Assembly (NCBI GenBank): GCA_026394075.1 | Contig: JAPKYX010000080.1 | Span: 1-40,848, forward strand | DNA length: 40,848 nt | From: Acidobacteriota bacterium | GTDB taxonomy: Bacteria > Acidobacteriota > Terriglobia > Bryobacterales > Bryobacteraceae | Direction: 5' to 3' | Shown: one piece after another, positions 9,359 through 28,637 of the stretch | Position numbering within the stretch: position 1 is the stretch's first letter | How the letters are laid out: every line of letters begins with the position of its first letter | Program-made: the position numbers and the translations under genes | Notes under the pieces: model-generated | Database searches by the model: none | The model's input: the letters and a program-made list of their open reading frames with translations, nothing else | Told to the model about the DNA's origin: nothing

Positions 9359-9364
9359 ACGGGC

Positions 9365-11302: not shown

Positions 11303-11370
11303 TGAATTGGGGAGATGCCGATCCGGCGGGCCAAAAATCGCTACCGGCCAACCTACTTTAGTTTAGCCGC

Positions 11371-14300
11371 TCACCTCAGACCGGAAAGAGTCTTTGCCGT
11401 CGCAGCGTTCAAAGCATCCATATCGACACCAATAGCTTTTCCATCGCTGGAACAAGTGACGGTCGGCAAGGTGACGCAAACCGCCCCGGCGCGGACACTG
11501 CTGCTGGGGGTAAGCCGGTAGTCAGCAACCGTCGTATTGGCAAATCCGATCTCGGAAACAGATGTCATCCAGATGTTTGCCGGCGGTGCACCGGCAATGG
11601 TACTGGCGGGGGCGGCACAGCAGAACACGTTGTTCTGGAAGGTCCACAGAGCCGTTGGGAACTCCGTCCACTGCTGGTCGAGCGCAATATGGCCTCGGGG
11701 GTTCCCGCTGATACTGTTGCTGATAGGCCCAGTGCCAGAAACCTCAGCGACGAAAATATTGTCCCGTACGTCCAGCCCAGCGTTGGAACCGTACAGAGTG
11801 CTGTCATTGAACAGCAACGTCGGGCCGACTCCTTTGATATCGCCAATGGTATTGTTCCGGACGATTAGGTCCTCGACACCGTTGGCCGCGAAAGCCACGA
11901 TGGCCGAACGCCCGTTCAAGCTGATGCTCAACGGTGAGTTCCGTCCCCCTTCGGCGGGGCTCAACGCATTGATGCCATAGATCAAGTTGTTGGTGAACGA
12001 AACACGGCTGGTGGTGAGGGTAGTCGGCAGACGGTCCTGGGTGTCGTGTCCACTCATCCACAGCACATTGGGCGCATTACGAAAGATATTGTTCCGGATG
12101 TTGATATCAGAAATTTGCGCCAGCGAGGAGATCGTCGACCCTCGAGCGCCGGCCACCAAACCATTAGGCGGATTGCGTAGGGTGATGGATCTTGCGGTCG
12201 GAGCCGAGGCCACCTCGGCGATGAAAGGCTGCCCGTTCGGATTGACGAACTTCAGCAGCATTCCGGGCTGGTAAGAGACGTCACCGGTGAAGGTAACCGT
12301 GTTGCCCGAAACGGCGCTGACCGTCGTCATCGACCCCGCCGGGCTGGTCCTCGGCGTCAGCAATATCTGGGCTCCTTGCGATACATCCACCCAGTTGCCG
12401 TCAAAAATATTGCCTTCGATCAAGAAGAACTTGCCGGTCTTCAGCTCCAGAATTTGCCGGTTCATGTAGTTCTTGCCGGAGGTATTCAGGGGTGATCCGT
12501 ACAGGTACTTGTCCGGGTGCGAAAAATGGTTTTTCCGGATCGTGTAGTGGACGGGTGGCAGGACGCCACTGAGATTGCCGGGAAAGAACACGGTGATGCC
12601 GATGGCCTCAATGAAGTTGTTTTCGATCCGTCCAGGGCCTGGCCCCAGCGGAATCATTAAGGCGATCGATTCCTGTCCCGTTGTACCCGGAGTCACCGCT
12701 TCAGTCCACCGATTCACTCGCGTAACCCGAGACCCAAGCAGGGCTATATCGGCGCCATTCATCACGATGCCGTAGACCAGCCGGGATGGATAGTCCAAGC
12801 CATGGATGTTGCAGCGGTCGATGATGATATCGGTGCTGGTGCTCTGGAGCAGCATCAACGCTCCATACTGATGCTGAGCGTAAGGGGCGTTGCTCCAGGA
12901 GGCGGGCGGCGGGTTGGGTGCCGGAACATGGGTCAGCTCCAGCCCCACGAAGTGGTACCGGCTGGCACCGGCGGCCAGTTGAATCGGGGCGTGCTGGCCT
13001 ATGTCGCCCACATTGATGGGGCGCATCGGCGTCCACACTCCCGGCGACGTGCACCAGAAGATGGCCCGGGTGTTGGGGGTGAGATCGGTGCGATACAGCC
13101 ACTCATTCGGGCTACATGGTGGTGTGATCGGCCCAGTAGGGGTTGAGAGGTTTGTGACCGTTCCGCCCCAGCTACCGGCGAGTATGCCCGCGAAGGAGGA
13201 ATTGTTAAGCAGGATCGTGTCCGGCGTCAACACCGTGATTCGCCAGGTACCGTTAATCCGAGTGGCTCTCGATCCAGCCACTCGAACCTGATCTCCAGTC
13301 TGGTAACCATGCCCCGAAACCTGCAGAACAATCCTGTCCTTATCGGGACTGGCGAACAAAATCGGCAGAGGCCCCGGTGCAGGTGGAGTTGATGTTGGTG
13401 GCCCAGCACTTTCTTTAAACGGAAGTGGAGCCCAGACGTCAAACCTAGTGACCGTACCGCCCCAGTTGCCCTCCAACACACCGGCGAAAGAGGAGTTGTC
13501 CAGCCGGATGCTATCCGGCGTCAGAACAGTGATTCGAAAAGTACCGTTAATCCGGGTGGCTCTCGATCCAGCCACTCGAACCAGATCGCCAGTCTTGAAA
13601 TCATGACCCGGAACTGACAAAACTACCCGGTCCTTGTCGGGGCTGGCATACAAGATCGGCTGTGGCACCGACGTGGCCCGGTTGATGCATTCGTAAACGG
13701 CAAAACCAGGCACATCCGAGACCCAGGCGAAAGTGCCCGCATTGCAGGCACTGGGGAGTGTAGAGATTCGATACCAAAGCGCGGGCAGCGCATCGGTGAC
13801 GAATTTGGCCAAAGCCGGTGTATCACTTTCGTCGATGCGTTCGTTCTCGACAGCAAAGGCTGAATCCGGACTGGACGTTCTGACAATCACCCAACCCGTG
13901 TGGTTCCGGCGTTGCGGAAATACAAACTGACCCAGGCAGGTGGTACCGGCCGGGACTTGGACCACATAGTGAAGGGAACCGGTCAAACTGGCCAGTGACG
14001 TCAGGATAGTGGGCAAATTTGAGCACTGTTCATTGACATAAAATGGCGGCCCGTAGGCTCCAGGGGGAGGAGCCGTGGGCACCTCTCGCGGCGGGACGGG
14101 AACGTCCGGCACTGGCGCGCCTGGCAACCGTGCTGCGGTGGTCAAGACTTGGTTGGAGCTACAGGTTTCCGCCGTTCCGACAGCCGAGCAGACTTGAAAA
14201 TTATAGGTAGTATTGGGTTTGAGCCCGGAAAGATACCAGGAATGATCCGTCGTTGCGGCCGTTTGGCCGTTGGTCAGGCCACCGTAGGCGGTGGTTAATC

Positions 14301-14481
14301 CAAACTTGATTGTTGTGGTCGAGGCGAGGTTGGTAACCCAAGTCACTCTCGCCGAAGTGGGCGTAATGGCGTCCACCACGGGTTGAACAGTGATGAGGGG
14401 TTGCGCCCAAGACGCGCTACAAGCCAGCAGAGCCCAGACAGCTTTCTCCGGCGCGGCCAGCCCTAGCGTTAACTTCTTCAT
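11371..14481 (-). CDS. Secreted FN3 / right-handed beta-helix protein, paralogue A
   Basis: A 1036-residue protein with a signal peptide (KKLTLGLAAPEKAVWALLA, likely cut near ASWAQP). Next come a fibronectin-III-like domain (about 30-118, with STTTIKFGLTT and LSGLKPNTTYNF) and a proline-rich linker. A conserved module starts at NEQCSNL and contains PAGTTCLGQFVFP. Two tandem beta modules follow (about 272-343 and 370-441, HGY-TGD-VRVAGS then INGTWRITVLTPD), resembling the E1-FCCH-like repeats of phage and surface proteins. A parallel beta-helix (about 480-950) is rich in IIIDRCNIHG, IENNFIE and IRKNHF rungs and is interrupted near 707-787 by another beta insert. It ends with a Cys-Cys segment (NNVFCC) and GVDMDALNAA. 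Two paralogues lie at 24028-27417 and 32088-34892. It probably binds or modifies the exported polysaccharide; catalysis is unproven. Confidence 0.85.
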   Translation of the reverse strand: MKKLTLGLAAPEKAVWALLACSASWAQPLITVQPVVDAITPTSARVTWVTNLASTTTIKFGLTTAYGGLTNGQTAATTDHSWYLSGLKPNTTYNFQVCSAVGTAETCSSNQVLTTAARLPGAPVPDVPVPPREVPTAPPPGAYGPPFYVNEQCSNLPTILTSLASLTGSLHYVVQVPAGTTCLGQFVFPQRRNHTGWVIVRTSSPDSAFAVENERIDESDTPALAKFVTDALPALWYRISTLPSACNAGTFAWVSDVPGFAVYECINRATSVPQPILYASPDKDRVVLSVPGHDFKTGDLVRVAGSRATRINGTFRITVLTPDSIRLDNSSFAGVLEGNWGGTVTRFDVWAPLPFKESAGPPTSTPPAPGPLPILFASPDKDRIVLQVSGHGYQTGDQVRVAGSRATRINGTWRITVLTPDTILLNNSSFAGILAGSWGGTVTNLSTPTGPITPPCSPNEWLYRTDLTPNTRAIFWCTSPGVWTPMRPINVGDIGQHAPIQLAAGASRYHFVGLELTHVPAPNPPPASWSNAPYAQHQYGALMLLQSTSTDIIIDRCNIHGLDYPSRLVYGIVMNGADIALLGSRVTRVNRWTEAVTPGTTGQESIALMIPLGPGPGRIENNFIEAIGITVFFPGNLSGVLPPVHYTIRKNHFSHPDKYLYGSPLNTSGKNYMNRQILELKTGKFFLIEGNIFDGNWVDVSQGAQILLTPRTSPAGSMTTVSAVSGNTVTFTGDVSYQPGMLLKFVNPNGQPFIAEVASAPTARSITLRNPPNGLVAGARGSTISSLAQISDINIRNNIFRNAPNVLWMSGHDTQDRLPTTLTTSRVSFTNNLIYGINALSPAEGGRNSPLSISLNGRSAIVAFAANGVEDLIVRNNTIGDIKGVGPTLLFNDSTLYGSNAGLDVRDNIFVAEVSGTGPISNSISGNPRGHIALDQQWTEFPTALWTFQNNVFCCAAPASTIAGAPPANIWMTSVSEIGFANTTVADYRLTPSSSVRAGAVCVTLPTVTCSSDGKAIGVDMDALNAATAKTLSGLR
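13157..13665. repeat. Tandem duplication of a beta-module inside paralogue A
   Basis: Two copies of about 214 bases (13157-13370 and 13452-13665) lie at a period of 295 bases in the coding strand of paralogue A. The best-kept part, about 42 bases at 13250-13291 and 13545-13586, differs at very few positions, and the flanks are more diverged. Each copy encodes one HGY/TGDLVRVAGSRATRINGT-type module. The near identity of the core suggests recent duplication or gene conversion. Confidence 0.8.
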
Positions 14482-14997
14482 GTGAGTTTTGGGTTCCCTC
14501 CGTATACCCCAGAACCGTACGAAACAATCAAGTGTCTTACATCGGATCTAACTGCTTCGTGTGAATGGAGCCGTCAAACGTATCCAAAAGCACGGAGCTT
14601 TTGCGTGGTGTCCGAATATAGAAGACGCTTGTAAAGCAGATGCGAAAACGTCACTGGTGGGCCGGGTAGTCTCAATAGAGAACCGCCCAACAGACCGTGA
14701 GGAACAATCATCTAGGGTGTCCCAGGATATCCACCGGCAGGATTATTTTGGGTTCCTGCTCGGGGCTAGGGCTACCTCTGAGTGATTCGTAGTATAGCCA
14801 ATCAACGCAACGGTACGCAAAACGCCCTAGTGCCGTCACCTCAATAGCGTAAGGGGAAGGCTCGTCTGCCGCATCGGGCAGGAATAAACGCCAGGGATCA
14901 TCATTGCCCACATCTTGCCGATACTCCAGTACAGGGAGGGTGGTAGAAGAGCTACCCTGTCGGGCCTCTGCGATTCTTCTAAGCGGTTGATTAAATT
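14482..14997. other. Intergenic region between divergent genes
   Basis: About 515 bases separate the secreted protein (minus) from the WecA-like gene (plus). It must hold the promoters of both. The 3' part carries a possible gene remnant on the minus strand (separate entry). I found no convincing -35/-10 pair, hairpin or repeat in the rest. Confidence 0.6.
14708..14995 (-). pseudogene. Possible C-terminal remnant of a LacI/PBP1-like regulator
   Basis: A minus-strand frame is open for about 95 codons (14995 to the TGA at 14708) and has the composition of a real protein. The tail reads LGRFAYRCVDWLYYESLRG, then PEQEPKIILPVDILGHPR. This loosely follows the end of LacI-family ligand-binding domains (G-x-x-A, an amphipathic helix, then a basic 'hxxLPxxLhhR' strand). 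Upstream it hits a stop just before the WecA-like start, so the DNA-binding and core domains are missing. It is either decayed, the end of an unrelated gene, or chance coding. The family call is weak. Confidence 0.25.
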
Positions 14998-16473
14998 ATG
15001 TTTGAACCAAACATCCATGTGGACCTGGGCACCGCACGCCTGCTGGAACTTCTCTGGCTGGGAGGCCAAACATTCTGCATTGCTCTGGCGCTGACGCCGC
15101 TGATCCGGGATATATTCAGTTTTTTTAATCTATTGGATCACCCCTCCGGCCGCAAGATGCATGCCCGTCCGGTGCCTCGCGCCGGGGGGATCCCCATCGC
15201 TATCGCCTACGGTCTTTCCTTGCTGAGCGCCACGCAGTGGCCACCGGATGCGGAGTCGATGGCCTGGAAGCTCTTGCCGGGCGCTCTGATCATATTCTGT
15301 GTGGGCTTGGTGGATGACCTGTTCAGCATCAAGCCGGAAATGAAGCTGGCGGGACAGGTTGTGGCCGCCCTGGTGACGTTCGCGGCGGGGCTTCGGGTGG
15401 AGACGATTGGAAACTACAGCCTTCCGATGTGGGCGGCTGTCCCGATTACGGTCTTTTGGCTATTGCTGACCACCAATGCTCTGAATCTGATTGATGGACT
15501 AGACGGCCTGTGTGCGGGGATGGGGCTATTTTCCACCTTGACGCTGTTTGGCGTCGCCCTGCTTTATGGCAACTACGCGTTGGCGATGACCACGCTTCCG
15601 CTAGCGGCGGCGCTGGCCGGCTTTCTTGTCTACAACTTCAATCCGGCGACAGTTTTTCTGGGTGATTCGGGGGCGCTACTGATCGGCTACCTGCTGGGCT
15701 GCTTCGGAATGATCTGGACCCACAAGATGGCCACTTTACTGAGTATCGCGGTTCCGCTGGTATCGCTTTCAGTGCCGTTGCTGGATCTGCTGCTCTCCGT
15801 CATCCGGCGATTTCTGTCCGGTCAACCGATCTTCGGCGCTGACCGGCTCCATATCCATCACCGATTGCTCGATCACGGTCTGACGACGCGTGGGGCGGTG
15901 ATCACGCTTTATCTGTTCGCTGCGGTCGCGGCCGGGACGGCGGTGCTGCTGAGTGCTCCGCACTCTGATGGCTACGGCCCCTGGCTGCTGGGCGCGTTTC
16001 TGGTGGCTGCTTCGCTACTGGTTTCCCGGCTGCGGTACGTTGAGTTCCATACCGTGAGTGAGTTCATTTTTGGTGACGGCTTGCGGCACGTATTTGCCAG
16101 CCGCCTACACCTGAGCAAATGGGCAGCGGAGCTTCGGGCGGCAGCCTCGGAAGACGAGTGGTGGTCCGCGATCGTGCGCTGCGGACGCTCTGTTGGGTGG
16201 GTTCGGGTTTCATGGGTACGGCTGCAGGCGGGCCGAGTTGACACGATGACGCATGAAGCAGTCGGCTGGACGTTCCGGATTGAGTTGGCCAATGCCGAAG
16301 CGATCGTGATTGAAGGCCCGTGCACTAGTAAAAGTCAGGTCTCATTGGAACTGATCGCCCAGGAGCTCACCTCCAGTTGGCGCTACGATTGGGTGGCTAC
16401 CGCCCCAGAGCCCTCCGCAAGCGATGCTGCTGCCCCCGCAGTGACAGCTAAGCAGTTGACAGTGTGTAGCTAA
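14998..16473 (+). CDS. wecA: Initiating undecaprenyl-phosphate sugar-1-phosphate transferase, WecA/MraY family, with C-terminal extension
   Basis: It transfers a sugar-1-phosphate (GlcNAc-1-P in the type enzyme) from UDP-sugar to undecaprenyl phosphate, the first step of repeat-unit assembly at the inner membrane. About 10-11 membrane helices fill residues 15-350. The family motifs are intact: HARPVPRAGG (55-64), the VDDLFSIKP aspartates (105-113), NLIDGLDGL (163-171), the FLGDSG loop (220-225) and the histidine-rich loop ADRLHIHHRLLDHG (281-294). Normal WecA proteins end near residue 350-370. Here a further ~135 soluble residues (about 357-491, KWAAELRAAASEDEWWSAI and onward) follow, predicted cytoplasmic and of a fold I do not recognise. 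The start is the ATG at 14998 with only a weak upstream purine stretch. The replication module begins right after its stop. Confidence 0.88.
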   Translation: MFEPNIHVDLGTARLLELLWLGGQTFCIALALTPLIRDIFSFFNLLDHPSGRKMHARPVPRAGGIPIAIAYGLSLLSATQWPPDAESMAWKLLPGALIIFCVGLVDDLFSIKPEMKLAGQVVAALVTFAAGLRVETIGNYSLPMWAAVPITVFWLLLTTNALNLIDGLDGLCAGMGLFSTLTLFGVALLYGNYALAMTTLPLAAALAGFLVYNFNPATVFLGDSGALLIGYLLGCFGMIWTHKMATLLSIAVPLVSLSVPLLDLLLSVIRRFLSGQPIFGADRLHIHHRLLDHGLTTRGAVITLYLFAAVAAGTAVLLSAPHSDGYGPWLLGAFLVAASLLVSRLRYVEFHTVSEFIFGDGLRHVFASRLHLSKWAAELRAAASEDEWWSAIVRCGRSVGWVRVSWVRLQAGRVDTMTHEAVGWTFRIELANAEAIVIEGPCTSKSQVSLELIAQELTSSWRYDWVATAPEPSASDAAAPAVTAKQLTVCS

Positions 16474-16534: not shown

Positions 16535-16614
16535 GTGTAGTTGTGTGGAAACTTCGGGCCATTACTGCTCAGCTGGAGTGTAGTTGCGTGGCAACTGGGT
16601 GTAGCTCCGTGGAA
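16535..16614 (+). repeat. Three upstream iteron-like repeats
   Basis: Copies of GTGTAGYTNCGTGGAA-like 16-mers start at 16535 (GTGTAGTTGTGTGGAA), 16578 (GTGTAGTTGCGTGGCA) and 16599 (GTGTAGCTCCGTGGAA). Their spacings are 43 and 21 bases, so they sit in the same two-helical-turn register as the main array. They could serve in initiator titration or copy control. Confidence 0.75.
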
Positions 16615-16728
16615 AGATTGGCCCCATTCCATTCTTTGCTTCACGCCGCGCAGGGCTATTGCGGGACTCGCTTCGCTTGTTTCTCAGCCTGGCGCATCAT
16701 CTACGCTCACCAAATGGCGCAAAGCTGG

Positions 16729-16751
16729 CTGTACAGATGGCCGCTGTACAG
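16729..16751. promoter_or_regulatory. Paired CTGTACAG palindromes in the origin region
   Basis: Two perfect 8-bp palindromes at 16729-16736 and 16744-16751 are separated by 7 bases. The same pair geometry recurs at 18946/18961 and 19021/19036. This pair is non-coding and lies between the two iteron groups, so a partition or control protein may bind here as well as at the par genes. Confidence 0.6.
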
Positions 16752-16972
16752 CCACTACGGGATTCCCCGCCCACGCTCAGCGCAGGCAGGCGAGGCCGTT
16801 TCTCCGATACCCGGCAGGAGTTGTTTCATTAAGTGTTGAACCCGGCGATGCCCTGGGAAGACCTCCAGCAATCACTTGAACTGACTGATACACATACCTT
16901 TAGCCCATGTTTCCGACCACCCGCCGACATTAGGCAATGGGAAGGCTATGCGGATGGACTATTCCCCGGCCA

Positions 16973-17116
16973 GTGTAGCTGCGTGGAAGAGAAGTGTAGC
17001 TGCTTGGCAGAATGGTGTAGCTGCGCGGAAGGATAGTGTAGGTGTGAGGAAAAGTAGTGAAGTATCGTGGAAGCAGTGGTGTAGTTTCGTGGTCACAAAG
17101 GTGTAGTTCCGTGGAA
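16973..17116 (+). repeat. Main iteron array, seven copies
   Basis: Seven direct 16-mers start at 16973, 16994, 17015, 17036, 17057, 17079 and 17101, giving spacings of 21, 21, 21, 21, 22 and 22 bases. The consensus is GTGTAG(C/T)TGCGTGGAA. The best copies are 16973 (GTGTAGCTGCGTGGAA) and 17101 (GTGTAGTTCCGTGGAA), and the weakest is 17057 (GTGAAGTATCGTGGAA). All point the same way as the rep gene 90 bases downstream. They are likely binding sites for that initiator. Confidence 0.85.
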
Positions 17117-17205
17117 CGAAATGTGGTTTATCCCTTTTATTTTCATGCTATTGCAAACTGCTAAAGGTTTTCATAGTTCTGTTCAGACTATCCTAAAGCA
17201 ACACC
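17117..17205. other. A+T-rich stretch, candidate DNA-unwinding element
   Basis: By hand count this segment is about 36 % G+C, far below its surroundings, with runs such as TTTATCCCTTTTATTTTC. It lies between the last iteron and the rep start codon, where the unwinding element and rep promoter are expected. TTATCCCTT resembles a DnaA box only partly (six of nine positions). Confidence 0.55.
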
Positions 17206-18714
17206 ATGAAGAGTACACAGCCGAGGTCTGAGGCTGACCAGCAGACTCTGGCCGCTGTTGTTGTAGAGCGTGAGGACGTAGATCTCGTCCGAGTTGAAAA
17301 GAACCTCCAGTCAGTTGGTTTCTTCGCATCTACACCGAGCAAAGAGATTTCCCGGACGGTCTTCCAGATCATCCGCCGGCCGGACGGCCAAAGGATCCAG
17401 GCGAAGGCCGTGATTGAGGGTGTACCCAGCCTGGGTTTGCCCACCACGGCTGATCGAGATAAGTACATGGCTTTCATGAAGGTAGCCATGGATCAACGGG
17501 ATCAGCAGGGCCAAGTGGCCAATCCTGTCCGCTTCTCCGGTGCTGAGCTGATCAAGCTGCTGCGGCTGCGGAAGGGCGGCTTTCACTACGACGAAATCAA
17601 CGATTGGTGCAAGCGCATGGTGGCAACCATCATCATGTCGGAGTCATCGATCTTCCTGGCCGACCGCCGCCAGTATGCCAGCGATACGTTTCACGTCTTC
17701 GACCGGGTGGTGCTTTTCGGCGAGGAGATGAAGGACGGCATCCGATCCGAGTTCTATGAGGTTTATCTTTCGCAGTGGCAGTTGAACAATCTGAATCAGG
17801 GCTACATGCTGCCGCTCGACTTCAATGCCTATCTGAAGCTGAGCCGTGACATAGCCAAGGCGCTGTTCGGCCATCTCAGCGTCTGGTTTTATGCCAGCAA
17901 GGGACAGCCGGTGGAGAAGAAGTATCAGGATTTCTGCCAATTGCTGCATATCCGGGCTTATCCGCATATTTCTAAAGCCCGATCGGTCCTTCAGCCCTCC
18001 CTGAACGAACTGGTGGATATTGGCTATTTGTCCAGCTGGGAGATCGTACACACAAGTCAAGGCGGAGATTTTAAGCTGGTGCTGGCTCCGGGAAACCGGC
18101 TTTTGTCGTTGCCCAGCTTTGCGGGATTTGTGACCTCTGAGGGGCGGGCGGCGCTACAGGCAAGTCTCCCGAATTGGGTCGGTGAGCTGATCGAGCGCGG
18201 TGTAGCTGAGAGGAAGGCCCGGCAATTGGCTCTGGACATCGCGGATTCACAACCGGTGATGGACCAGATCGAGTATGCCGATTCGCTGATCCAGAGTGAC
18301 CGTCGCGGCAAGCTCCAGAACCCGGCCGGCTTCTACATTTGGGCGATCGAGAGCAATTTGGGCGTCCCGGAGCAGTTTGAGACGTCAAATCGGCGGCAAC
18401 TGCGCCAGCAACGTGAACAGGCGGAACTCGATAGTCAGCAACGGCACTGGCGGCTGCTGGAGAAGTACGAATTGGACATCGAACGCCTGATCGAAGATAA
18501 GATTGCCCGGATGACGCCCGAACGGTTAGCGGATGCCATCAAGGAACAAACGCGCAAGCTGCGCCGAGAGCAACCCGACTTTCACCAGCGCTCAAGCGAT
18601 GCCACCAAGCGTGAAGTGGCTCTAGGGATGCTGCGTTCACATCTCCGGGAGAGTACTTCCCTGCCCGGTTTTGAACAGTGGCTCAAAGCTAATCAGCAGT
18701 TGGTGATGTTCTAA
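17206..18714 (+). CDS. repA: Plasmid replication initiator protein, RepA type
   Basis: A 502-residue soluble basic protein without signal or membrane helices. I read it as a 'replication initiator protein A' family member. A variable N-terminus (1-70) is followed by a first winged-helix region (about 105-230, with LIKLLRLRKGGFHYDEINDW and FHVFDRVVLFGEE) and a second (about 230-320, LSRDIAKALFGHLSVWFY then YPHISKARSVLQPSLNELVDIGYL). A charged helical C-terminal part (380-480) is rich in Arg, Glu and Gln. It would bind the iterons just upstream, open the A+T-rich DNA and recruit the host helicase. The ATG at 17206 lies at the end of the A+T-rich segment with a poor ribosome site. An iteron-like sequence lies inside the gene at 18200-18215. 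Confidence 0.8.
   Translation: MKSTQPRSEADQQTLAAVVVEREDVDLVRVEKNLQSVGFFASTPSKEISRTVFQIIRRPDGQRIQAKAVIEGVPSLGLPTTADRDKYMAFMKVAMDQRDQQGQVANPVRFSGAELIKLLRLRKGGFHYDEINDWCKRMVATIIMSESSIFLADRRQYASDTFHVFDRVVLFGEEMKDGIRSEFYEVYLSQWQLNNLNQGYMLPLDFNAYLKLSRDIAKALFGHLSVWFYASKGQPVEKKYQDFCQLLHIRAYPHISKARSVLQPSLNELVDIGYLSSWEIVHTSQGGDFKLVLAPGNRLLSLPSFAGFVTSEGRAALQASLPNWVGELIERGVAERKARQLALDIADSQPVMDQIEYADSLIQSDRRGKLQNPAGFYIWAIESNLGVPEQFETSNRRQLRQQREQAELDSQQRHWRLLEKYELDIERLIEDKIARMTPERLADAIKEQTRKLRREQPDFHQRSSDATKREVALGMLRSHLRESTSLPGFEQWLKANQQLVMF
18200..18215 (+). repeat. Iteron-like sequence inside the rep gene
   Basis: GTGTAGCTGAGAGGAA matches the iteron consensus at 13 of 16 positions and has the same orientation as the array. 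It lies in coding DNA about 1.1 kb from the array, so it may be chance or a titration/looping site. Confidence 0.35.
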
Positions 18715-18735
18715 CGGGATAGCTTCCCAGTGGGG

Positions 18736-19209
18736 CTACCGGGGCAGCGGAAAGTTCTTTAGGTGCTGTTCCAAGGCTTCGACGACGATGTCGGTCATCG
18801 CGATCCGGTAGTGATGAGCGACATCAACCAATTGATTATAAAGCGGTAACGGCAACCGATAGGTAGCGCTTTGGGAGGGATCGCCGCGGCGTGGCCCAGA
18901 GCGGGGCACGAGTTTAGTGCCTGAGCCCAGCGACGCTTCAGCAGGCTGTACAGGCGCCAGCTGTACAGCTGTACCCGATGGGCTGGACACAAAGGCGGTG
19001 TCTGCTAGTGCGGAATCGAGCTGTACAGCTACTGGCTGTACAGGCAGTGCGATGCTGTCTAGCTGTACAGTTGATTGCTGCAGCCGCGGGGGCTCTACTG
19101 CCGGCGGCAAGACCGCAGCCTCCAGGAGTGGCGAAACGGTTGGCATGTCGCGGGCCGGCAAGTCGTGCCGAACCAATTGGGTTAGGCTCGGGCGGGGACT
19201 CTTAGACAT
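18736..19209 (-). CDS. Small ribbon-helix-helix protein, putative centromere-binding partition protein
   Basis: A 157-residue protein with a long low-complexity N-terminus (1-105, rich in Pro, Ala and Val-Gln pairs) and a compact C-terminal domain (about 113-157) reading YRLPLPLYNQLVDVA, then RIAMTDIVVEALEQHL. That domain is the strand plus two helices of a MetJ/Arc-type ribbon-helix-helix fold. With a ParA gene directly upstream, overlapping by 28 bases, it fits the ParG/ParB-like partner of small type Ib ParA systems, which binds centromere repeats as a dimer. The start is firm: GGAGGT (revcomp of 19216-19221) lies 6 bases before the ATG at 19209. Five CTGTACAG palindromes sit inside the N-terminal coding part, each read as NCT-GTA-CAG (Val-Gln). 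Binding to them is inferred. Confidence 0.7.
   Translation of the reverse strand: MSKSPRPSLTQLVRHDLPARDMPTVSPLLEAAVLPPAVEPPRLQQSTVQLDSIALPVQPVAVQLDSALADTAFVSSPSGTAVQLAPVQPAEASLGSGTKLVPRSGPRRGDPSQSATYRLPLPLYNQLVDVAHHYRIAMTDIVVEALEQHLKNFPLPR
18946..19070. promoter_or_regulatory. Five CTGTACAG palindromes inside the ribbon-helix-helix gene (candidate centromere)
   Basis: Perfect sites lie at 18946, 18961, 19021, 19036 and 19063, with a partial site (CTGTACCC) at 18969. Steps are 15, 60, 15 and 27 bases, all multiples of three, so every copy is read in one frame. Two longer palindromes AGCTGTACAGCT are present (18959-18970 and 19019-19030). Use of GTA for valine and NCT before it is constant across copies, which suggests selection on DNA, not only protein. 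A parS-like or operator role is inferred. Confidence 0.6.
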
Positions 19210-19874
19210 TCAAGCACCTCCATGGTGAGTTGGCGGACTTCTTCGGCCCCCTTGGAGCCGGGCTCATAACGCAAGATGGTCTGTCCAGTGCCGGGAGACT
19301 CCTTGTAGGCTGTCCGGTCACTCAATTCCGCTTGCAAGACGCGAATGGATACCTCAGTTGAGGTGAAAAACGCCACGGCTGCTTCGCGGGCTTCGGTGGC
19401 CAGGCGAGAGCGGTTGGTCGGCTTGCGGTTCACGACGATCAGCGCTTGCAGATCCGGCCGGAATGCCGCCACTTGTTGGAGCAATGGCAGGACCATCTGT
19501 GAGGCCTCGTAATCGAGGAATGTGGGTTGCACGGGAACCAGAACAAACTGGCTGGCCAAAACGGCCCCAATGGTGATGCCCCCTTGGCCGCTGGCATCGG
19601 CCAGCCCGGGCGGACAATCGATGAGGATGATCTCGTAGTCCAGGTTCATACCCGGCAAATCCTTGTGCAGACCGGGGCGGGCCATCGAAATGATGTCGAA
19701 GCCGAGTTGATTCTCCTCCTGGCGATTGCGCCATTTGGTTGCACTTTGTTGAGGGTCGGCATCGATCACCAGGACGCGATAGCCTGCTTCGTGGAGGCCG
19801 CCGGCCAGGTTCATGGTGACGGTGGTTTTACCCGCGCCACCCTTCTGGTTGGCAATAGAAATAACAGCTGGCAT
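19182..19874 (-). CDS. parA: ParA-family partition ATPase
   Basis: A deviant Walker ATPase of about 230 residues without an N-terminal helix-turn-helix, as in small (type Ib) plasmid ParA proteins. From the ATG at 19872-19874 it reads MPAVISIANQKGGAGKTT, with the KGGAGKT Walker A and both lysines, then DADPQQSATKW (A') and IILIDCPPG (Walker B). It would drive plasmid segregation by ATP-dependent binding to the nucleoid. The frame also opens from a TTG at 19913, but the 13 extra residues come from the site-rich leader and do not look like ParA. Two CTGTACA(G/C) sites lie 5-28 bases upstream of the chosen start, where binding would block expression, suggesting autoregulation. It overlaps the ribbon-helix-helix gene and follows a helix-turn-helix gene. 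Confidence 0.88.
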   Translation of the reverse strand: MPAVISIANQKGGAGKTTVTMNLAGGLHEAGYRVLVIDADPQQSATKWRNRQEENQLGFDIISMARPGLHKDLPGMNLDYEIILIDCPPGLADASGQGGITIGAVLASQFVLVPVQPTFLDYEASQMVLPLLQQVAAFRPDLQALIVVNRKPTNRSRLATEAREAAVAFFTSTEVSIRVLQAELSDRTAYKESPGTGQTILRYEPGSKGAEEVRQLTMEVLECLRVPARA

Positions 19875-19878
19875 CTGT

Positions 19879-19953
19879 CTGTACAGCATGTCAGCTGTAC
19901 ACCGAAAATACAAGAGGCTTTCTAGCTGTATGACTGGCGGTACAGCTGTACAG
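19879..19953. promoter_or_regulatory. CTGTACAG operator-like cluster ahead of parA
   Basis: Perfect sites are at 19879-19886 and 19946-19953, with imperfect ones at 19895-19902 (CTGTACAC), 19926 (CTGTATGA) and 19939 (GGTACAG). They cover the short gap before parA and the last codons of the preceding gene. The position fits an operator controlling parA and the ribbon-helix-helix gene. Confidence 0.55.
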
Positions 19954-20449
19954 CCGCATCGGTGCTCTCGGTGACTACTTCGAAACCTTCCAGGTCATTA
20001 CTAATGGCCAGGGCTAAGGCGAGGAGCTTTTCCATGGCCTCACGAGAGGTGGTGAAGTGGACGGCAATACGACCTGGCGTTAGCTCGATCCCTGCGGGCA
20101 GGGAAGTTAACTGCTGCTGGATGATCCGGGCTGGGGCCTCGACCGGGAGACGCGGCGTGCGAGCCCATTGTTCCAGTTGACGCGCCAGACGCAGACGGCG
20201 CTGGTGTTCCATGCCGGCCGGTTCTCCGGCGGCGGTTGCCGACAGGAACTGCCGCAGACGATCGCGTTCCACCAGTAGATTGCGCCCGATCAGGCGATTG
20301 GCGAGAGGCTTCATCAACTGCTGGGCGCGGCGACGCCCGACACCGAGCAGAGTCTGTAGCATCTGACGGTCAATCCAAGGGCTCTCCAATGCCTCCAGTG
20401 CCGCTAGGGCTTCCGGAATTGAGCCGTACCATGTTGGTTTATCAGGCAT
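19922..20449 (-). CDS. Uncharacterised helix-turn-helix protein of the par cassette
   Basis: A 175-residue protein of a family I do not recognise. Residues 26-55 (WIDRQMLQTLLGVGRRRAQQ then LMKPL) look like a winged or simple helix-turn-helix, followed by a basic, arginine-rich helix (80-100) and an alpha/beta C-terminal part ending with VQLYRQSYS. There is no signal or membrane segment. It is the first gene of the leftward cassette, about 48 bases before parA, and its last codons carry CTGTACAG and CTGTAC sites. It could be a regulator of the cassette, a third partition component, or a copy-control factor. It is divergent from the tyrosine recombinase, so it may also act on that promoter. Function unknown. 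Confidence 0.6.
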   Translation of the reverse strand: MPDKPTWYGSIPEALAALEALESPWIDRQMLQTLLGVGRRRAQQLMKPLANRLIGRNLLVERDRLRQFLSATAAGEPAGMEHQRRLRLARQLEQWARTPRLPVEAPARIIQQQLTSLPAGIELTPGRIAVHFTTSREAMEKLLALALAISNDLEGFEVVTESTDAAVQLYRQSYS

Positions 20450-20490
20450 TGTGGACTTTGCCAGTCAGCATACTATAGGCGGTGCGATGG

Positions 20491-20504
20491 TGCGCATGTG
20501 CGCA
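20491..20504. promoter_or_regulatory. Palindromic element in the par-recombinase divergent region
   Basis: TGCGCATGTGCGCA consists of two TGCGCA half-sites around a 2-base centre. It lies in the 103-base gap between the helix-turn-helix gene and the recombinase gene, where divergent promoters are expected. An operator role is possible. Confidence 0.35.
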
Positions 20505-20527
20505 ATACGGCTCGAAGTTAATAGGTG

Positions 20528-20545
20528 TGATAAAGAACGTTATCA
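20528..20545. promoter_or_regulatory. Inverted repeat TGATAA-N6-TTATCA before the recombinase start
   Basis: Perfect 6-base arms (20528-20533 and 20540-20545) flank a 6-base centre AGAACG, ending 7 bases before the ATG of the tyrosine recombinase. The arm-spacer geometry resembles a short Xer/integrase core site. Equally it could be an operator covering the ribosome-binding region. Confidence 0.4.
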
Positions 20546-20552
20546 TTCATAT

Positions 20553-21503
20553 ATGTCGACTCCAATCCAGATAGTTTCCGTACCTGCTGCGGCCGAACTG
20601 TTTCACTCCACGCGGCTGAGTGCTCAACGGACGGCCGAGTTTTTTGCGGCGCACATCCGCAACCGGCACACACGCCAGGCGTACCTGCGGGCGGTGAGTG
20701 ACTTCGCGATCTGGTGCCGAGGGCAGGGAAGTGGTTCTTTGGTGGCTATCCAGCCAATCGAAGTGGCGGCGTGGGTGGAGGATCTGCAGCGACGCCTCTC
20801 GCCGCCAACCGTGAAGCAGTATCTGGCGGCGCTGCGGATGCTATTCGATTGGCTGGTGGTGGGCCAGGTGCTGCCGACTAATCCAGCCAGCGTTGTTCGT
20901 GGACCGCGCTACTCCGTCAAGAGGGGAAAAACAACAGTGCTGTCTGCGGAGGAGGTGCGGAGTCTGATGGACGCCATCGAGACTGATACCGCTATCGGGC
21001 AGCGGGATCGAGCATTGATCGGGTTGCTGGTCTATACGTTTGCGCGGGTGGGAGCCGCCATTCAGCTGCGCCAGGAAGACATCTACCATCAGGGGAGGCG
21101 TCTTTGGGTGCGTTTGCACGAGAAGGGGGGTAAGGAGCACGAAATGCCCTGCCATCACCGATTGGAGCAATATCTGGACGATTACCTCCAAGCGGTGCCA
21201 GGGAAACCCAAAGGCTGGTTGTTCCGCACCACGATGGGGCGCAGCGGGAAGTTGACCGAGCGGCCGATGGCGCAACCTGATGTCTACCGGATGATCCAGC
21301 GGCGGGCTGAACGCGCCGGGCTAGAGACTCGGATCTGCTGCCACACGTTTCGGGCCACTGGGATCACCGAGTACCTGCGCCATGGCGGCCGGCTGGAAGT
21401 GGCGCAACAGATGGCTAATCATGAAAGCGCCCGCACCACGGGCCTCTATGACCGGCGCCTCGATCTGGTCACCTTGGATGAAGTGGAACGGATCGTGTTC
21501 TAG
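20553..21503 (+). CDS. Tyrosine recombinase, XerC/D-like
   Basis: A 316-residue site-specific recombinase of normal Xer length. The N-terminal core-binding SAM-like domain covers residues 25-115 (HTRQAYLRAVSDFAIWC). The catalytic domain has all six expected residues: Arg165 (TFARVGA), Lys191 (HEKGGKEH), His264 and Arg267 (CHTFRATG), His290 (ANHESARTTG) and Tyr299 (GLYDRR). The frame opens 34 codons earlier, but the ATG at 20553 precedes the first homologous-looking residues. Next to rep and par genes it most likely resolves plasmid multimers. It could instead be the integrase that put this module into a chromosome. It is divergent from the par cassette, and its stop is 6 bases from the stop of the convergent O-antigen ligase gene. 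Confidence 0.88.
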   Translation: MSTPIQIVSVPAAAELFHSTRLSAQRTAEFFAAHIRNRHTRQAYLRAVSDFAIWCRGQGSGSLVAIQPIEVAAWVEDLQRRLSPPTVKQYLAALRMLFDWLVVGQVLPTNPASVVRGPRYSVKRGKTTVLSAEEVRSLMDAIETDTAIGQRDRALIGLLVYTFARVGAAIQLRQEDIYHQGRRLWVRLHEKGGKEHEMPCHHRLEQYLDDYLQAVPGKPKGWLFRTTMGRSGKLTERPMAQPDVYRMIQRRAERAGLETRICCHTFRATGITEYLRHGGRLEVAQQMANHESARTTGLYDRRLDLVTLDEVERIVF

Positions 21504-21509: not shown

Positions 21510-22901
21510 TTAGCGAATACGGCTGAGAGCCGGTATGGGCGCGAGTGAAGCAAGCGGCACGGGGTTTGAGACGCTGCGACTGGCTGGGGTCATGTACTCG
21601 GCCTTGGCGGCCCTTTCCAAGGCGACGGCCAGACCGCTAATGATGAAGATCAATCCGGTGTAGGCAAGGCTTAAGAAGAACATCCCCACCATCAAGGTCA
21701 CTAGCGACATCTGGAGGTATATGCCTCCCTGCCGGATGTCCTCAGCGTCCTTGTCACCCGGTCGCACGGACATTTTCGCGACTCGGGCGGTCGCGCCAAA
21801 CGCCGAGAAGACTGCTCCTAAAAAGAACACCAAGGCCGGGATACCGCACTCGCTCGATACTTCGGTGTAGCTGTTGTGGGTCACGTGCCAGGCGGCTTTT
21901 CTATTCTGGGCCACGGATTCCGCGTTCTCGGCGACTTGGAACTGACCAGGGCCGACGCCGACGATGGGGTTGTAGAAAGTAAACTCCAGGCTTTTGAGGA
22001 ACAGGTAGGTCCGGCCATCAGTGGAGCCTTCTGCCGCCGCCTCGTCGTCATCGGCGGGACCTTGTTCGGAACTGAGTCCGGGGATGGTGGCAAAGCGCTT
22101 AAGCAAACGATCCGAGGACGTAGCCAAGACCGCCACGCCAACAACCATCAGTGCGATCATTTGCATCTTCTTAAATCCGCTGGCGCGGATAAAGTAGAGC
22201 ACCAGCATCACCGTCAATGCCAGCATGCCGGCGCGCGACCCCGTCCGGTAGGCCACATAAAGAATCGTTGGCACAAAACAAAGCGGCAACAGTTTGCCTA
22301 CGGTGCCGCGGGCATTACGGGACATAAGCCAAAGCATGGGCATGCCCATCAGAACCGCCAGGCACAACGTATTGGAGTCACTTAAAGTACCGCCATCCAT
22401 GGCCAGGCGTCCTCGGGCGCTCACCGTGCCCTTGAATATTGCAGCAACACTCGCCGCACCCATGCCAATACCGATACCGTAGATCATCCGCAGAGCCCAT
22501 TTGCCCGTTACAGTGAGTGCGACAATAGCACCCATTATCGACAACGACCGGAAGACGGAAGTGACGGTTTCGACGCTGCCTCCACGCCAAACGCTGAACG
22601 GCAGACTGATCAATGTCCACAAGGCGAAGGCCGTAAAGAAGGCTCCTGCCCGGGTGGCGAAGAATGAGAACACCCCGCCGGTAATCAACGCCATTGCGAA
22701 CCACACCAAGTTGAGCAAAAGGGTGATCTTCAGAGCGCCCAAGCCGCTGATCTCGAGTGTGCGGCTGAGGTAGAAGAAAACGTAGAACAGCAGCGCGAAA
22801 TAGCCGATCTTTTGAAGACTATCGGGCTCCTTGAAATGGCCCAAGCCGGATACTGGCACAGTGGAAGGGCGTCCGTTTGCGGCAGCTAAGGGCAGGGTCA
22901 T
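21510..22901 (-). CDS. O-antigen polymerase/ligase family protein (Wzy/WaaL-like)
   Basis: A 463-residue inner-membrane protein with about 11-12 hydrophobic helices and one large periplasmic loop (about 265-355). The loop contains PIVGVGPGQFQ and the HVTHNSYTEVSSECG segment, the H-N-x-Y-x-E signature of the O-antigen ligase/polymerase family (Wzy_C). It should polymerise lipid-linked repeat units outside the membrane, or ligate the glycan. With a Wzx-type flippase and a WecA-type starter in the window the polymerase role is the better guess. The gene sits directly beside the replication module. The ATG at 22901 precedes a 30-residue cytoplasmic tail. Confidence 0.85.
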   Translation of the reverse strand: MTLPLAAANGRPSTVPVSGLGHFKEPDSLQKIGYFALLFYVFFYLSRTLEISGLGALKITLLLNLVWFAMALITGGVFSFFATRAGAFFTAFALWTLISLPFSVWRGGSVETVTSVFRSLSIMGAIVALTVTGKWALRMIYGIGIGMGAASVAAIFKGTVSARGRLAMDGGTLSDSNTLCLAVLMGMPMLWLMSRNARGTVGKLLPLCFVPTILYVAYRTGSRAGMLALTVMLVLYFIRASGFKKMQMIALMVVGVAVLATSSDRLLKRFATIPGLSSEQGPADDDEAAAEGSTDGRTYLFLKSLEFTFYNPIVGVGPGQFQVAENAESVAQNRKAAWHVTHNSYTEVSSECGIPALVFFLGAVFSAFGATARVAKMSVRPGDKDAEDIRQGGIYLQMSLVTLMVGMFFLSLAYTGLIFIISGLAVALERAAKAEYMTPASRSVSNPVPLASLAPIPALSRIR

Positions 22902-23133
22902 AGTCGGGTTAAATCCCTGTCGAGGCCTTCAACTGCAAGCAACATGCTGTCCATACAATTTCGAACTTTCCGATGACGGGTCTCAATTCTACTTTTCGGC
23001 AGCTGAACTGAATATCGGATCTCACAATGCCGGTACTGCTGAGCATTCGGGACTCTCCCGCAGGGGAACCTCTGTCTCCATGGTAGTCGGATTGTGCCCG
23101 GGCCGGACCCAGCCACTCCCGCCGATCTGAATT

Positions 23134-23886
23134 CTAAACGGACTCGGTAACCACTTCGGGCTCAGGAGTGGGCCGCAGGTCCTTGACGATTCGAGCCGGG
23201 TTGCCGGCGACTACGTGATAGGCGGGAACGTCCCGGGTGACCACGCTCAGCGCGCCCACAATCGCGCCTTCTCCCACGGTGACACCTTTTAGAATGCAGG
23301 CGCTATTGCCAATCCAGGCTTTGTTGCCGATGTGCACCGGCTTGGTGCTCTCTTGCCCCGGCGGCTCATGGCGAATGCGGCGGTCCGCATCAATGGGATG
23401 CCCATCATTGTCCGCAATGCGAACAGAACCGGCAATCAGCACATCATCGCCAATGGTCACTTCTCTGTTCACTGAAATCACAGTGCCGTGCCCGATCGAC
23501 GAGCGATTGCCCACCACCAGGCGCGGATTATCGAAAACGCGGCCGCTGATAATGCTGATCTTCCCGCTGATCTGAACATTGTCGCCCAGATAAATCTGGC
23601 TATGGCCGATCACTTCCGGCAGCAATTCGATGCCGAGGTTCTTTCCCACTTCGGTACAGCGGGCCACAAACAACGGGTAACGGTAGAGGGCCGTCAAACA
23701 GAACGTGAACACGGTTAGGGCAATGAAGTGAGCCTGGTAGAGAAAGCCAAATAGCGGCTTCAGCGGTCCCGGAGAGATGCCGCCCCCGTAGAGCACGCGC
23801 TTGGCAATGCTGCGCAGAAAACGAAAAAATGGTGTTTCCCCGCGGCGCAGTTTAAGCAGAAAGGTGTTCATTAAAGAACGAGCCAC
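23134..23886 (-). CDS. Hexapeptide-repeat (left-handed beta-helix) acyltransferase
   Basis: A 250-residue protein of the serine-acetyltransferase/WbbJ-like group. Residues 35-75 include a hydrophobic stretch (FIALTVFTFCLTALYRYPLF) that may anchor it to the membrane. From about residue 90 isoleucine- and valine-rich hexapeptide turns follow (IYLGDNVQISGKISI, RSSIGHGTVISV with the likely catalytic His, VHIGNKAWIGNSACIL). The closing VVTRDVPAYHVVAGNPARIV is the typical C-terminal cap of these enzymes. It likely transfers an acetyl group from acetyl-CoA to a hydroxyl or amino group of the repeat unit. It shares strand with the polymerase gene, 232 bases apart, and with the FN3/beta-helix gene upstream. 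Confidence 0.88.
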   Translation of the reverse strand: MARSLMNTFLLKLRRGETPFFRFLRSIAKRVLYGGGISPGPLKPLFGFLYQAHFIALTVFTFCLTALYRYPLFVARCTEVGKNLGIELLPEVIGHSQIYLGDNVQISGKISIISGRVFDNPRLVVGNRSSIGHGTVISVNREVTIGDDVLIAGSVRIADNDGHPIDADRRIRHEPPGQESTKPVHIGNKAWIGNSACILKGVTVGEGAIVGALSVVTRDVPAYHVVAGNPARIVKDLRPTPEPEVVTESV

Positions 23887-24027
23887 TGCCCAACGTGGCC
23901 CACTTCTTCTATTGTCGGCGATTTATCCTCAGAGCGTGAATCTGTTGCGACGCTCAAATGGTGGCGGATTCTACTGGGCCACCCGGCCTCGCGAAAGGCG
24001 GGCCGGATGGCCATCTGTGGCTGGGCG

Positions 24028-27000
24028 CTAGGGTGCGGTTCTAAACAAGCCCGAAGGCTGCTCAACCGCGCAGAGTACACGATAGTAGTACGTTGTGTTC
24101 GCCGCCAGTCCGGATATAGCGACACTGCGCACCCGGGCGCCGCCGCCATCACTTAACCGGCTTCCCGTGCCCCAGGCGGGATTGGTGCCGTACTCCACCG
24201 TGCAGGAATCCGCATCCGGCGCGAGATACCCTACATTCGCCGTAGTGGTGCTGACCCCCCATGTACGCGCATTCTGGACCTTCCCCTGGGCCGCATCTAG
24301 CGCGTCAATATCGGCACCAACATCCCGTCCATCCGTGCCCCGGTTGGCACCACCAGAGATGAACGGGCTATCCGAGCGCAACCTGTAGTTCAACTGCGGA
24401 TCATTCCAGAACGAGAAGGCCGCTTTGCTGGCCGGCAGAGCCGCGATGCCGGTGTATTTGGACGCATTGGATATGCCGCAGCAGAATGCATTATTTGCCG
24501 CAACCCAGCCCACGGAAGATCCGCCAAGGTTAGGCCAGGCAGCGTCCAGGCCATCTGTTCCGATCCCCCAGCTTTGCCCGTTGATGGGAATACTGGTTGC
24601 ACTACCGGCCGAGACCCAAAGGTTATTGCGCAGAGAAAGGCCTTTGCCTCGGCCGTTCTGGAGCTCGGTATTGAATATCATCTGTTGGCTGCCGTTGCCC
24701 AGGACATCGATCGCCGAGTTGTTATCGAGGATGTAGTCTTCCGGCCCGAAGGTAATGTTGAAGATGTACGGGCTGCCACCGTTAGGGGCGATGCCGGTGG
24801 GGTCCGTGTAGCCATATGGAGGACCAGCCGTGGCGTCGCAAACCCGAAAGTCGATAATGTCATTGGTGCACGCCCGCCGGTTAATGTCGAAAAAGAGGTT
24901 ATTGCGGAACCGGATCCGCTGTGTGTGCTTGGTGATGGGACCGGCCTGAACACCGTGGCCATTCAGAAGCGCCACCACCGGCGTCTTGTTTAGCGTATTG
25001 TTCGTCCAATCCAGATCCGTGACCACAACCGTTGAACCCAAGGCTGTTGCCGTACCGCCTGTCGAAGAAACCGCAGGCATACCGGAAAGACGAATCGTGT
25101 TGGCCGACGCCGTAACGGAAGCGATGGACCAAATGCCATTGTGGGCGGGATTGGAAGCCCCCGTGATGGCCATGGGCTCGCCGGGTACGGCATTATCCAG
25201 TGCCCCCGTGTTGACCAAAACATCGCCGGAGCTGTTAATCGAGATCACCGGAGAGCTGACCCACGATTCCGGGCTAACCGGGGTCACCAGGGCCGCGGCA
25301 CCTTGGACGGACTTCGCCCAGTTGTTTTCGAAGATGTTTCCATCCAGCAGGAAGCGCTGGCCTCGTTTCCACTCGATGTGATGGCGGTTGGCGTACGTCC
25401 TTCCAGTCAGGTAGTTCTCCAGCGTTCCACCGCGGTGGACTGGATCCTTGTAGAACCAGTTTCGCCGGATGATGTAGTCCGAAGGAGGCTGGACAAACTG
25501 TAACGGAATGTCTGGCGTTGACGGTTCCGATGCCGTCTGCTGGGGGCTATCGGAAACAATCAGACTGATTCCGGCGCCCTGGATATAGTTGTTCTGGAAA
25601 TATCCGCCGCTGCCCTGCACGATCTGGATCAAGTTCACTTCCAGCAAGCCCGGGTGTGGGTGCAATAGCCAGGCCACACCGTTGTAGATCCTTGAATTCA
25701 CGAATCCGATGCGGGTCCCATTCGGGATCAACAGGGAACCTGTCCGGTTTGGGTAGTCATGGGAGTGAATATCGCAGCGGTCAAAAACGATATCGCTGTT
25801 GGAGATTCGTGTCCGAATTAGATTTCCCATCCGGCCCTGCTTCTCGTCGCCTGTGCCCCAGCCGTCGGGGATCGTCTGTGGGAACCTTGCGTGCTGAATA
25901 TCGAGACCGATAAACCGGTACCGGTTGGCATTGGCCTGAAAAGTGATGTGCACTGTCCCGGCCGGCTGATTGATCATGCGGAATGGCCGCCATGTGCCGT
26001 TATCGCACCATGAGAGCGTGCTGGGATTTGCCGGTACTTCGTCGATCCATGTTTGACCGTCGGCACAGGTGGCGGGCCGGTTTGCGGTGGGCCCATAGGT
26101 GCTGCCCGGTGCTTGTATACGTCCAATGTCGGCCCGCACCAGTCCCGTACAAGTGCTGCAGGAGGTGATGGTCCCCGTAGTTCCCACCAGTTGGAAAGTG
26201 TCCGAGTTAAGCACGAGAATCGGATAGCCTCTGGTGTCGAGCGCACTAATGCCGGTGCCCTCCACGCGAACCAGGGTCCCGTTTCTGAATCCATGACCTG
26301 TGATCCTGATCGTGATCACGCCCGCGGTGTTGGTGATCGTCTCGATGTTCTTGGTCACAATGAGGTTGGGAACATCGCAGACATACAGCGGTGTCAATCC
26401 GGTGCCATTCACCACGGGTCCGGTGATCGCATCCATCTGTCCTCTACCCGCGCAAGGGAACAGAGGCATGCTGGCGGCCCCGATCCAGTTGGTCAACGGG
26501 AAAGAATCCGACGTGAACTTTGCGTAGTAAGGCAGGAATTCATCGCGCGACCTCACCCCCGGAGGGGGAATCTGCGAATCTGCCGCCCCCGTGCGGATCA
26601 CCACCCACCCGCTATGAGACGGCCGTGCCGGAAAGACAAACTGGCCTCGACAGTCAGTGCCCGCCGGGATGAGCACCTGGTGATTGGCCGTACCGGTGAG
26701 GGTGCCTAAAGTCGTCAAAATGGTCGACAGATTGGAACACGTTCCATCGACATTGTAGGTATTGCCGTTGATCACGGGAACATCCGGGATCGATGTCGCC
26801 GGAGGGACTGGCACTGCGGCTCCACTGGGATCACCAGCCGTCGTGGTGAAAGTCGACACTGCAGTACACACCGCTCGCCCGATTCTCGCGGTGCCCGTCA
26901 ACGTTCCCGTCACCGTCAACGGGCTCCCGCCCAGCGTAGCGGCCAGTTGGAACGTATTGGCCGTCGCATTCACCACGAAGTATGTCCCGTAGTTGTTTAG

Positions 27001-27417: not shown

Positions 27418-27419
27418 AG

Positions 27420-28397: not shown

Positions 28398-28637
28398 CAA
28401 TCCCATTCCTCCAACGCCAGCAGAACTGCCCGGCAACCCGGCATGCGTTGTGAAGAGCAGGAATATGTTGAAACGAAAACGATTGTTCCCCAAGGATCCC
28501 TGTGACCGGTCGGAGGCAAACTCCCAGCCTCTTTGCCGGAACCAAGCTCCGTACGCCAGAATGAAAGCCAGAAATTCGGCGGTTAATCTGAGAGCTTCCG
28601 CCCGCAATGGCCGAGGAGATTAACGAGTACCCTAGAA

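Follow-up and report, generated by a model that had tools for sequence, protein, structure and literature searches.

Which protein reads the 8-bp palindrome CTGTACAG that is clustered in the replication module of an acidobacterial contig, and what is the site for? The stretch analysed here (the window) is the entire contig C9 of its genome (JAPKYX010000080.1, assembly GCA_026394075.1, family Bryobacteraceae; 40,848 nt). It is plasmid-like DNA of an acidobacterium, and its module encodes a replication initiator (RepA), a ParA ATPase and, directly downstream of parA, a 157-aa protein (rhh) that likely adopts a ribbon-helix-helix (RHH) fold. The answer favoured here, and considered probable, is a type Ib partition system in which CTGTACAG, bound by the RHH protein, would serve both as the centromere and as the operator at that protein's own promoter. 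This kind of system is known; the unusual features are the sites inside the rhh coding sequence (CDS) and a conserved pair between two blocks of RepA iterons, and a dual-coded protein linker with cassette-borne sites would make it a variant.

Distribution and conservation of the palindrome

An earlier note, made from the letters of the window alone, had counted nine perfect copies of CTGTACAG, including three pairs separated by exactly 7 bases, one of them non-coding, and had put the chance expectation below one such 8-mer in 40 kb. All nine positions proved exact and there is no other copy in the window; 0.26 copies are expected, and none of 100 dinucleotide shuffles reaches nine. Pairs with a spacer of exactly 7 bases (centres of the 8-bp boxes 15 bp apart) number three against 0.07 expected in the window, even with up to three mismatches permitted, and the pair 16729/16744 does lie outside any credible gene, as judged from the list of open reading frames (ORFs). 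When one mismatch is allowed, 23 matches are found in the window compared with 9.7 expected, and two of the additional copies (CTGTACAC and CGGTACAG) fall within the parA-proximal cluster. Five exact copies (18946-19070) are inside the rhh CDS, one is in the intergenic parA promoter region, and one overlaps the 3' end of orf4, the gene on the other side of parA. A similar density across the genome, which the note had named as evidence against its reading, is contradicted by a count of 13 copies in 5,765,239 bases (302 contigs), nine of which are within the 3.2 kb module while the other four are singletons, one each on four other contigs. A search of 400 genomes returned the paired pattern three times in the source genome, twice in one genome of the same genus (G001) and not at all in the other 398. 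Away from the plasmids the 8-mer is rare: the source genome (G000) has 4 further copies and G001 has 3, whereas the reversed 8-mer numbers 40 and 29, respectively. Another genome of the genus, G002, has 7 copies and no match to repA, rhh or orf4, so this rarity need not come from the plasmid.

Contig C25 of G001 (44,502 bases) is collinear with the window over most of its length and carries nine copies of CTGTACAG in the same module. With a terminal direct repeat of 149 bases, C25 is probably circular, hence a plasmid. No exact terminal overlap is seen in the window contig. Across the seven sites that can be aligned between the two, 53 of 56 positions are identical (95%), the corresponding figure for their 12-base flanks being 80 of 129 (62%), and 5000 placements drawn at random within these stretches gave none as good. 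The spacing of the non-coding pair is kept in G001 although the DNA around it does not align; in the two plasmids the pair is 477 and 494 bases ahead of the ATG of repA. Single sites do turn over: G001 has lost the copy at 19021 and has an exact copy in place of the degenerate one at 19938. Taken together, the comparison indicates that the CTGTACAG sites are under selection. The site order in L002 had suggested that repA is inverted between palindrome pairs, but this proved to be an artefact of orientation.

The in-gene sites were examined at the codon level. There are 11 such copies (five in the window rhh, four in G001, and one each in two further genomes, G025 and G320), and all 11 are read in one codon frame, GTA CAG, specifying Val-Gln. 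The residue before this dipeptide is Ala, Pro, Ser or Thr and the residue after it Leu, Pro, Arg or Gln. Among 23 other long ORFs of the window, a set that leaves out parA, GTA makes up 7.6% of 902 Val codons, and GTACAG encodes just one of 24 Val-Gln pairs. The G001 rhh has one Val-Gln that lacks a box counterpart in the window, and this is written GTC CAG, while its other four are GTA CAG in boxes. Because a single frame is shared and the GTA codon is rare, selection must act on these sites as DNA.

Association with the ParA-RHH cassette

Three of 30 loci with RepA relatives contain CTGTACAG: the window, G001 and contig C6 of G025. The last belongs to another genus, and its ParA is 73% and its RHH domain 72% identical to those of the window, its RepA only 39%. 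It has none of the window's iterons but carries two exact boxes, one abutting a TTGACA hexamer before parA and the other in the rhh linker. Conversely, six loci with RepA 66-76% identical (L003-L007 and L013) share the iteron and have no copy of CTGTACAG. Where RepA identity is about 66% or higher, all eight loci examined contain the strict iteron; at 37-42% none of nine does (L014-L027 were left out of this examination). Since loci that share only RepA are devoid of the palindrome, and a ParA-RHH locus with a distant RepA keeps it, the comparison supports coupling of the palindrome to the ParA-RHH cassette and not to RepA. Boxes both upstream of parA and within rhh are found in four cassettes (window, G001, G025 and G320) from three genera. 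In G025 and G320 the expected numbers of boxes are 0.05 in 8.0 kb and 0.04 in 6.0 kb, and 0 and 1 of 1000 shuffles, respectively, were as good.

The earlier note had read the palindrome as a dedicated site for a dimeric protein, most simply the RHH partner of ParA. Comparison supports this reading as far as the cassette is concerned, which makes the RHH protein the presumed reader; the link to RHH relatedness is imperfect. Ranked by RHH-domain identity to the window, the relatives are G001 (98%), G025 (72%), G043 (51%), L112 (45%), L102 of G294 (42%) and G320 (38%), with others lower. CTGTA half-sites occur seven times in the 350 bp upstream of the window parA (0.7 expected) and twice each upstream of parA in G043 (0.4 expected) and L112 (0.2 expected), with none in L102. 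Ten ParA-RHH cassettes, including those of G043 (as two pieces) and G294, have no exact copy of CTGTACAG in the 5-7 kb around each, and 30 loci have none in the stretch around parA, three of these being on the same contigs as L098, L105 and L108. No relatives of the RHH protein were found in the viral contigs or plasmids searched.

The union of ParA and RHH with a different RepA in G025 would be an instance of a par cassette carrying matching sites between replicons. It is quite possible, if short of probable, that the centromere lies within the gene of its own binder, such that a disordered RHH linker is dual-coded, Val-Gln being present because the DNA must read CTGTACAG, and the par cassette would thereby take its own sites from one replicon to another.

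A candidate partition system and its alternatives

The assignment of the downstream protein to the RHH fold rests on a sequence profile and a predicted pair of helices. A profile built from 16 such proteins, compared with the PDB, returned RHH chains as the top matches (2kel, E 0.0012; 2k9i, E 0.018). In the structural model, two helices (residues 121-134 and 138-151) that follow the segment ATYRLP are predicted with a predicted local distance difference test score (pLDDT) of about 90; mean pLDDT is 62.5, and most of the protein outside the helix pair, including its long N-terminal part, is of low confidence. No beta-strand is assigned in this monomer model. The top Foldseek matches are mostly RHH proteins (AmrZ, CopG, ORF56, Arc and ParG). 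Three features of type Ib loci can be recognised in the module: a Walker ATPase without an N-terminal helix-turn-helix (HTH) domain, a small protein directly downstream of parA that is predicted to have a flexible N-terminus and a C-terminal RHH domain, and an iterated site upstream of parA, here two exact and two one-mismatch boxes (19879-19953). The N-terminus MSKSxRPSLTQL is common to three members and differs in G320; its sequence is compatible with an arginine-finger tail that stimulates the ParA ATPase.

As proposed, the module would be a type Ib-like plasmid partition locus in which RHH dimers bind CTGTACAG boxes, whether paired, single or abutting. At 19879-19953 the RHH protein would cover the parA promoter and so repress the parA-rhh operon; from there and from the in-gene cluster (18946-19070) it would build a centromere complex for ParA to move, the N-terminal RHH tail probably stimulating the ATPase. 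The pair 16729/16744 probably adds a centromere near the origin, or tunes the use of repA or the origin.

The parS iterons of the plasmid pSM19035 are heptads, and their arrays overlap promoters, whereas the site described here is a palindrome of 8 bp, and five of its nine copies fall within the rhh CDS. In other respects the delta/omega system of pSM19035 is alike, with a small ParA, an RHH protein (omega) and separate parS arrays over several promoters, one of them at a copy-number gene, although each gene is transcribed separately there and parA and rhh overlap here (passages of PMC5016525). According to the same passages, type Ib systems combine ParA with an RHH protein that has a flexible arginine-finger tail and doubles as a repressor, and have repeats upstream of the operon; ParG is likewise partner and repressor with a flexible tail (passages of PMC7308502). 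The ParF-ParG-parH system of TP228 resembles the present one in its ParA-type ATPase, its RHH partner with a flexible N-terminal tail, and upstream repeats that serve as centromere and operator, but the parts of PMC5016525 and PMC7308502 available describe no in-gene centromere, unlike the sites in rhh. The Granulicella tundricola plasmid pACIX901 (NC_015057) carries parA, a small RHH-like protein (judged from its sequence) and RepA side by side; it differs in having no CTGTACAG in the 15.5 kb examined and the strand SIR instead of TYR. The met boxes of MetJ, where an RHH dimer reads an 8-bp palindrome, are also alike in that boxes can abut, as in G001, although MetJ is a metabolic repressor without a ParA partner. 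Some chromosomal parS sites are known to lie within parB genes. In-gene centromeres with RHH proteins or Spo0J were not found in the literature searched, where coverage of subscription papers was poor, and the passages of PMC9178275 and PMC7022226 seen contain nothing on in-gene sites. Nor was CTGTACAG found as a partition site in that literature (most subscription papers lie outside its coverage); as a whole word it returned only unrelated titles, on fungal mating genes and nucleosome signals.

Several observations weigh against the proposed partition system. Neither Pfam nor NCBIfam gives a match for the RHH protein, its model is confident only over about the last 40 residues, and every Foldseek E-value is at least 2.0. 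An exact box is present in G320 (38%) and absent from the cassettes of G043, L112 and L102/G294, and confidence was lowered slightly because the palindrome skips these intermediate RHH relatives; the idea of a tidy, palindrome-bearing RHH subgroup was dropped, as the palindrome occurs with domains of 98%, 72% and 38% identity and not with those of 51%, 45% and 42%. The two exact boxes of G025 and the two of G320 do not form a 7-base pair, a spacing that is restricted to the two sister plasmids. The sample is small, with only four box-bearing cassettes, two of them sisters, and G320 came to light via its palindrome. Profile A2, which matches 5 of 237 family genomes, was built from the four boxed cassettes and so provides no independent test. 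The putative parA promoter, placed by comparison with G025, was not reported by a scan for consensus promoters. Finally, a recognition code in which a TxR beta-strand reads CTGTA and an SxR strand reads GTAGC fitted the 18 cassettes from which it was drawn (CTGTA at p < 0.05 in six of eight TxR, GTAGC in three of three SxR), its 5-mers having been picked after inspection of the data, although CTGTA also reached p < 0.05 in two non-TxR cassettes (L101 and L190). The code failed on new cassettes: L285 and L286 (TFR) have no CTGTA, L283 (TID) has six, and in L274 (SIR) GTAGC occurs three times against 1.2 expected (p 0.13).

Other readers or functions of the palindrome have to be weighed against this reading. 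Some RHH proteins, CopG among them, act purely as repressors, and the boxes overlap the putative parA promoter in the window and G001, and abut the hexamer in G025, so that they might be operators only, through which RHH (or ParA with RHH) represses parA-rhh and perhaps the origin region, the centromere being elsewhere. This is judged unlikely, if still worth serious consideration, as the promoter is about 0.8-0.95 kb upstream of the five boxes in rhh, which would be superfluous there for simple repression, and at least one in-gene box is found in all four boxed cassettes; moreover, one protein does both jobs in the type Ib systems described in the passages of PMC5016525 and PMC7308502. It is distinctly improbable that the reader is orf4, which resembles a DNA-binding protein in sequence and adjoins the cluster, with one exact box overlapping its 3' end. 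A relative of orf4 (33%) is indeed on the same contig as the boxes in G320, but among 20 orf4-relative loci only the window and G001 carry CTGTACAG (0 of 18 outside the plasmid pair, these being the best-scoring relatives), and in G025 the relatives (27-32% identity) were found only on contigs other than C6, yet C6, which may be incomplete, has boxes.

The neighbouring gene for a tyrosine integrase raises the idea that the 8-7-8 pairs are its crossover sites, used in dimer resolution or integration, since inverted arms around a 7-base spacer resemble the core sites of tyrosine recombinases. Such a role is very improbable: each arm forms a palindrome on its own, pairing is lacking in three of the nine window copies and in every copy of G025 and G320, no inversion separates the sister plasmids, which are collinear across the pairs, and the arm pairs are not tied to a recombinase gene, no integrase relative having been found in the module stretches of G025 and G320 examined. 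Scarcely any weight is given to two further explanations. One is a host regulator such as LexA, as the SOS box of gammaproteobacteria, CTGT-N8-ACAG, has the arms CTGT and ACAG; this spaced motif, however, occurs twice in the window (0.40 expected), one of these outside the module, the boxes do not show the LexA/SOS spacing, and only four of the 13 genomic palindromes are outside the plasmid module. The other would make the in-gene copies a side effect of a Val-Gln motif repeated in the protein, as all five in the window encode this dipeptide, but the codon choice is constrained beyond the needs of the protein, the residues on either side differ between copies, and non-coding DNA has the 8-mer too; no relative was seen that retains these Val-Gln pairs in other codons.

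Acidobacteria are a phylum with few genetic tools, and if the partition reading is correct, their plasmids gain a defined partition site with a testable reader, which would be useful for stable vectors. The system would also provide a clear natural case of a disordered linker shaped by DNA sites to which its own protein may attach, and an example of partition specificity moving jointly with its sites.

The module, its replicon and related cassettes

The features of the module are listed in Table 1. Relatives of RepA are found on the acidobacterial plasmids pACIX901, pACPOL2 and pACPOL4. ParA matches NF041546 with 195.4 bits (cut-off 180), the match beginning at residue 17 of 243. A search of 300 genomes gave relatives of orf4 in 56 (E <= 0.01); orf4 itself belongs to no Pfam family at gathering level.

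Table 1. Positions of genes, repeats and palindrome copies in the module of the window.
Feature	Position (nt)	Strand	Basis or remark
RepA iteron region, GTGTAGNTNCGTGG(A/C)A-like repeats, blocks 16535-16614 and 16972-17116, partly with a 21-bp period	16535..17116	+	strict iteron in all eight close-RepA loci examined
CTGTACAG, first of non-coding pair between the two iteron blocks	16729..16736	.	same-spaced pair at equivalent place in G001:C25
CTGTACAG, second of non-coding pair	16744..16751	.	exact-copy search; paired-pattern search of 400 genomes
repA, replication initiator	17206..18714	+	Pfam RPA, PF10134, E 2.2e-9
rhh, predicted centromere-binding protein, 157 aa	18736..19209	-	overlaps parA end by 28 nt
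CTGTACAG in rhh (P-V-Q-P), first of 7-base-spaced pair	18946..18953	.	identical in G001
CTGTACAG in rhh (A-V-Q-L), second of first in-gene pair	18961..18968	.	identical in G001
CTGTACAG in rhh (A-V-Q-L), first of second in-gene pair	19021..19028	.	degenerated to CGGTACAT in G001
CTGTACAG in rhh (P-V-Q-P), second of second in-gene pair	19036..19043	.	identical in G001
CTGTACAG in rhh (T-V-Q-L)	19063..19070	.	kept in G001: 8/8 or 7/8 depending on alignment
parA, Walker ATPase, ~230 aa from ATG 19874	19182..19874	-	NF041546; mechanical ORF starts at TTG 19913
CTGTACAG just upstream of parA ATG, overlaps putative -10 (19890-19885)	19879..19886	.	conserved in G001
CTGTACAC, one-mismatch copy in putative promoter spacer (-35 at 19913-19908)	19895..19902	.	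identical in G001
orf4, 175-aa possible HTH protein	19922..20449	-	sequence reading; sub-threshold Pfam match only
CGGTACAG, one-mismatch copy abutting next exact copy	19938..19945	.	exact copy in G001
CTGTACAG at orf4 3' end, upstream of putative parA promoter	19946..19953	.	exact-copy search, G001 comparison
Tyrosine integrase (Phage_integrase)	20451..21503	+	Pfam

Most of the remaining window (938-16473 and 21510-34892) is occupied by a polysaccharide gene cluster, which includes genes for UDP-glucose dehydrogenase, a flippase-like protein (Polysacc_synt), several glycosyltransferases, polysaccharide deacetylase, asparagine synthase, O-antigen ligase and UDP-GlcNAc 2-epimerase, as well as some ORFs without a Pfam match. 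A literature search for exopolysaccharide plasmids of acidobacteria yielded nothing.

Copies of CTGTACAG also turn up at other ParA loci. Ten of the 160 ParA loci L110-L269 hold one to three exact copies somewhere. The viral contig L245, with a distant ParA, has three (3361, 5277 and 5805), one of them 346 bp before the ParA match, and the Edaphobacter locus L118 has two, about 1.7-1.8 kb after the small downstream gene. The plasmid contig of G043 has one copy far from par (L041). Contig C130 of the same genome (L099, L100; 70.5 kb) repeats the same sequence at its end and start, across the rhh start, and is probably a circular plasmid too.

A general iterated operator upstream of such parA genes was assessed in 18 cassettes. 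Seven had none of 40 shuffles as good and G001 had one of 40, while the other ten, including G025, were not clearly above shuffles. Several cassettes have repeated words of their own upstream of parA, namely CATGCAG in L190, AGCTACC in L118, GGTAGCTACC in L107 and L108, and a CCAGACA-like word in L112; these words exceed shuffles in four of the five, with L107 at 4 of 40.

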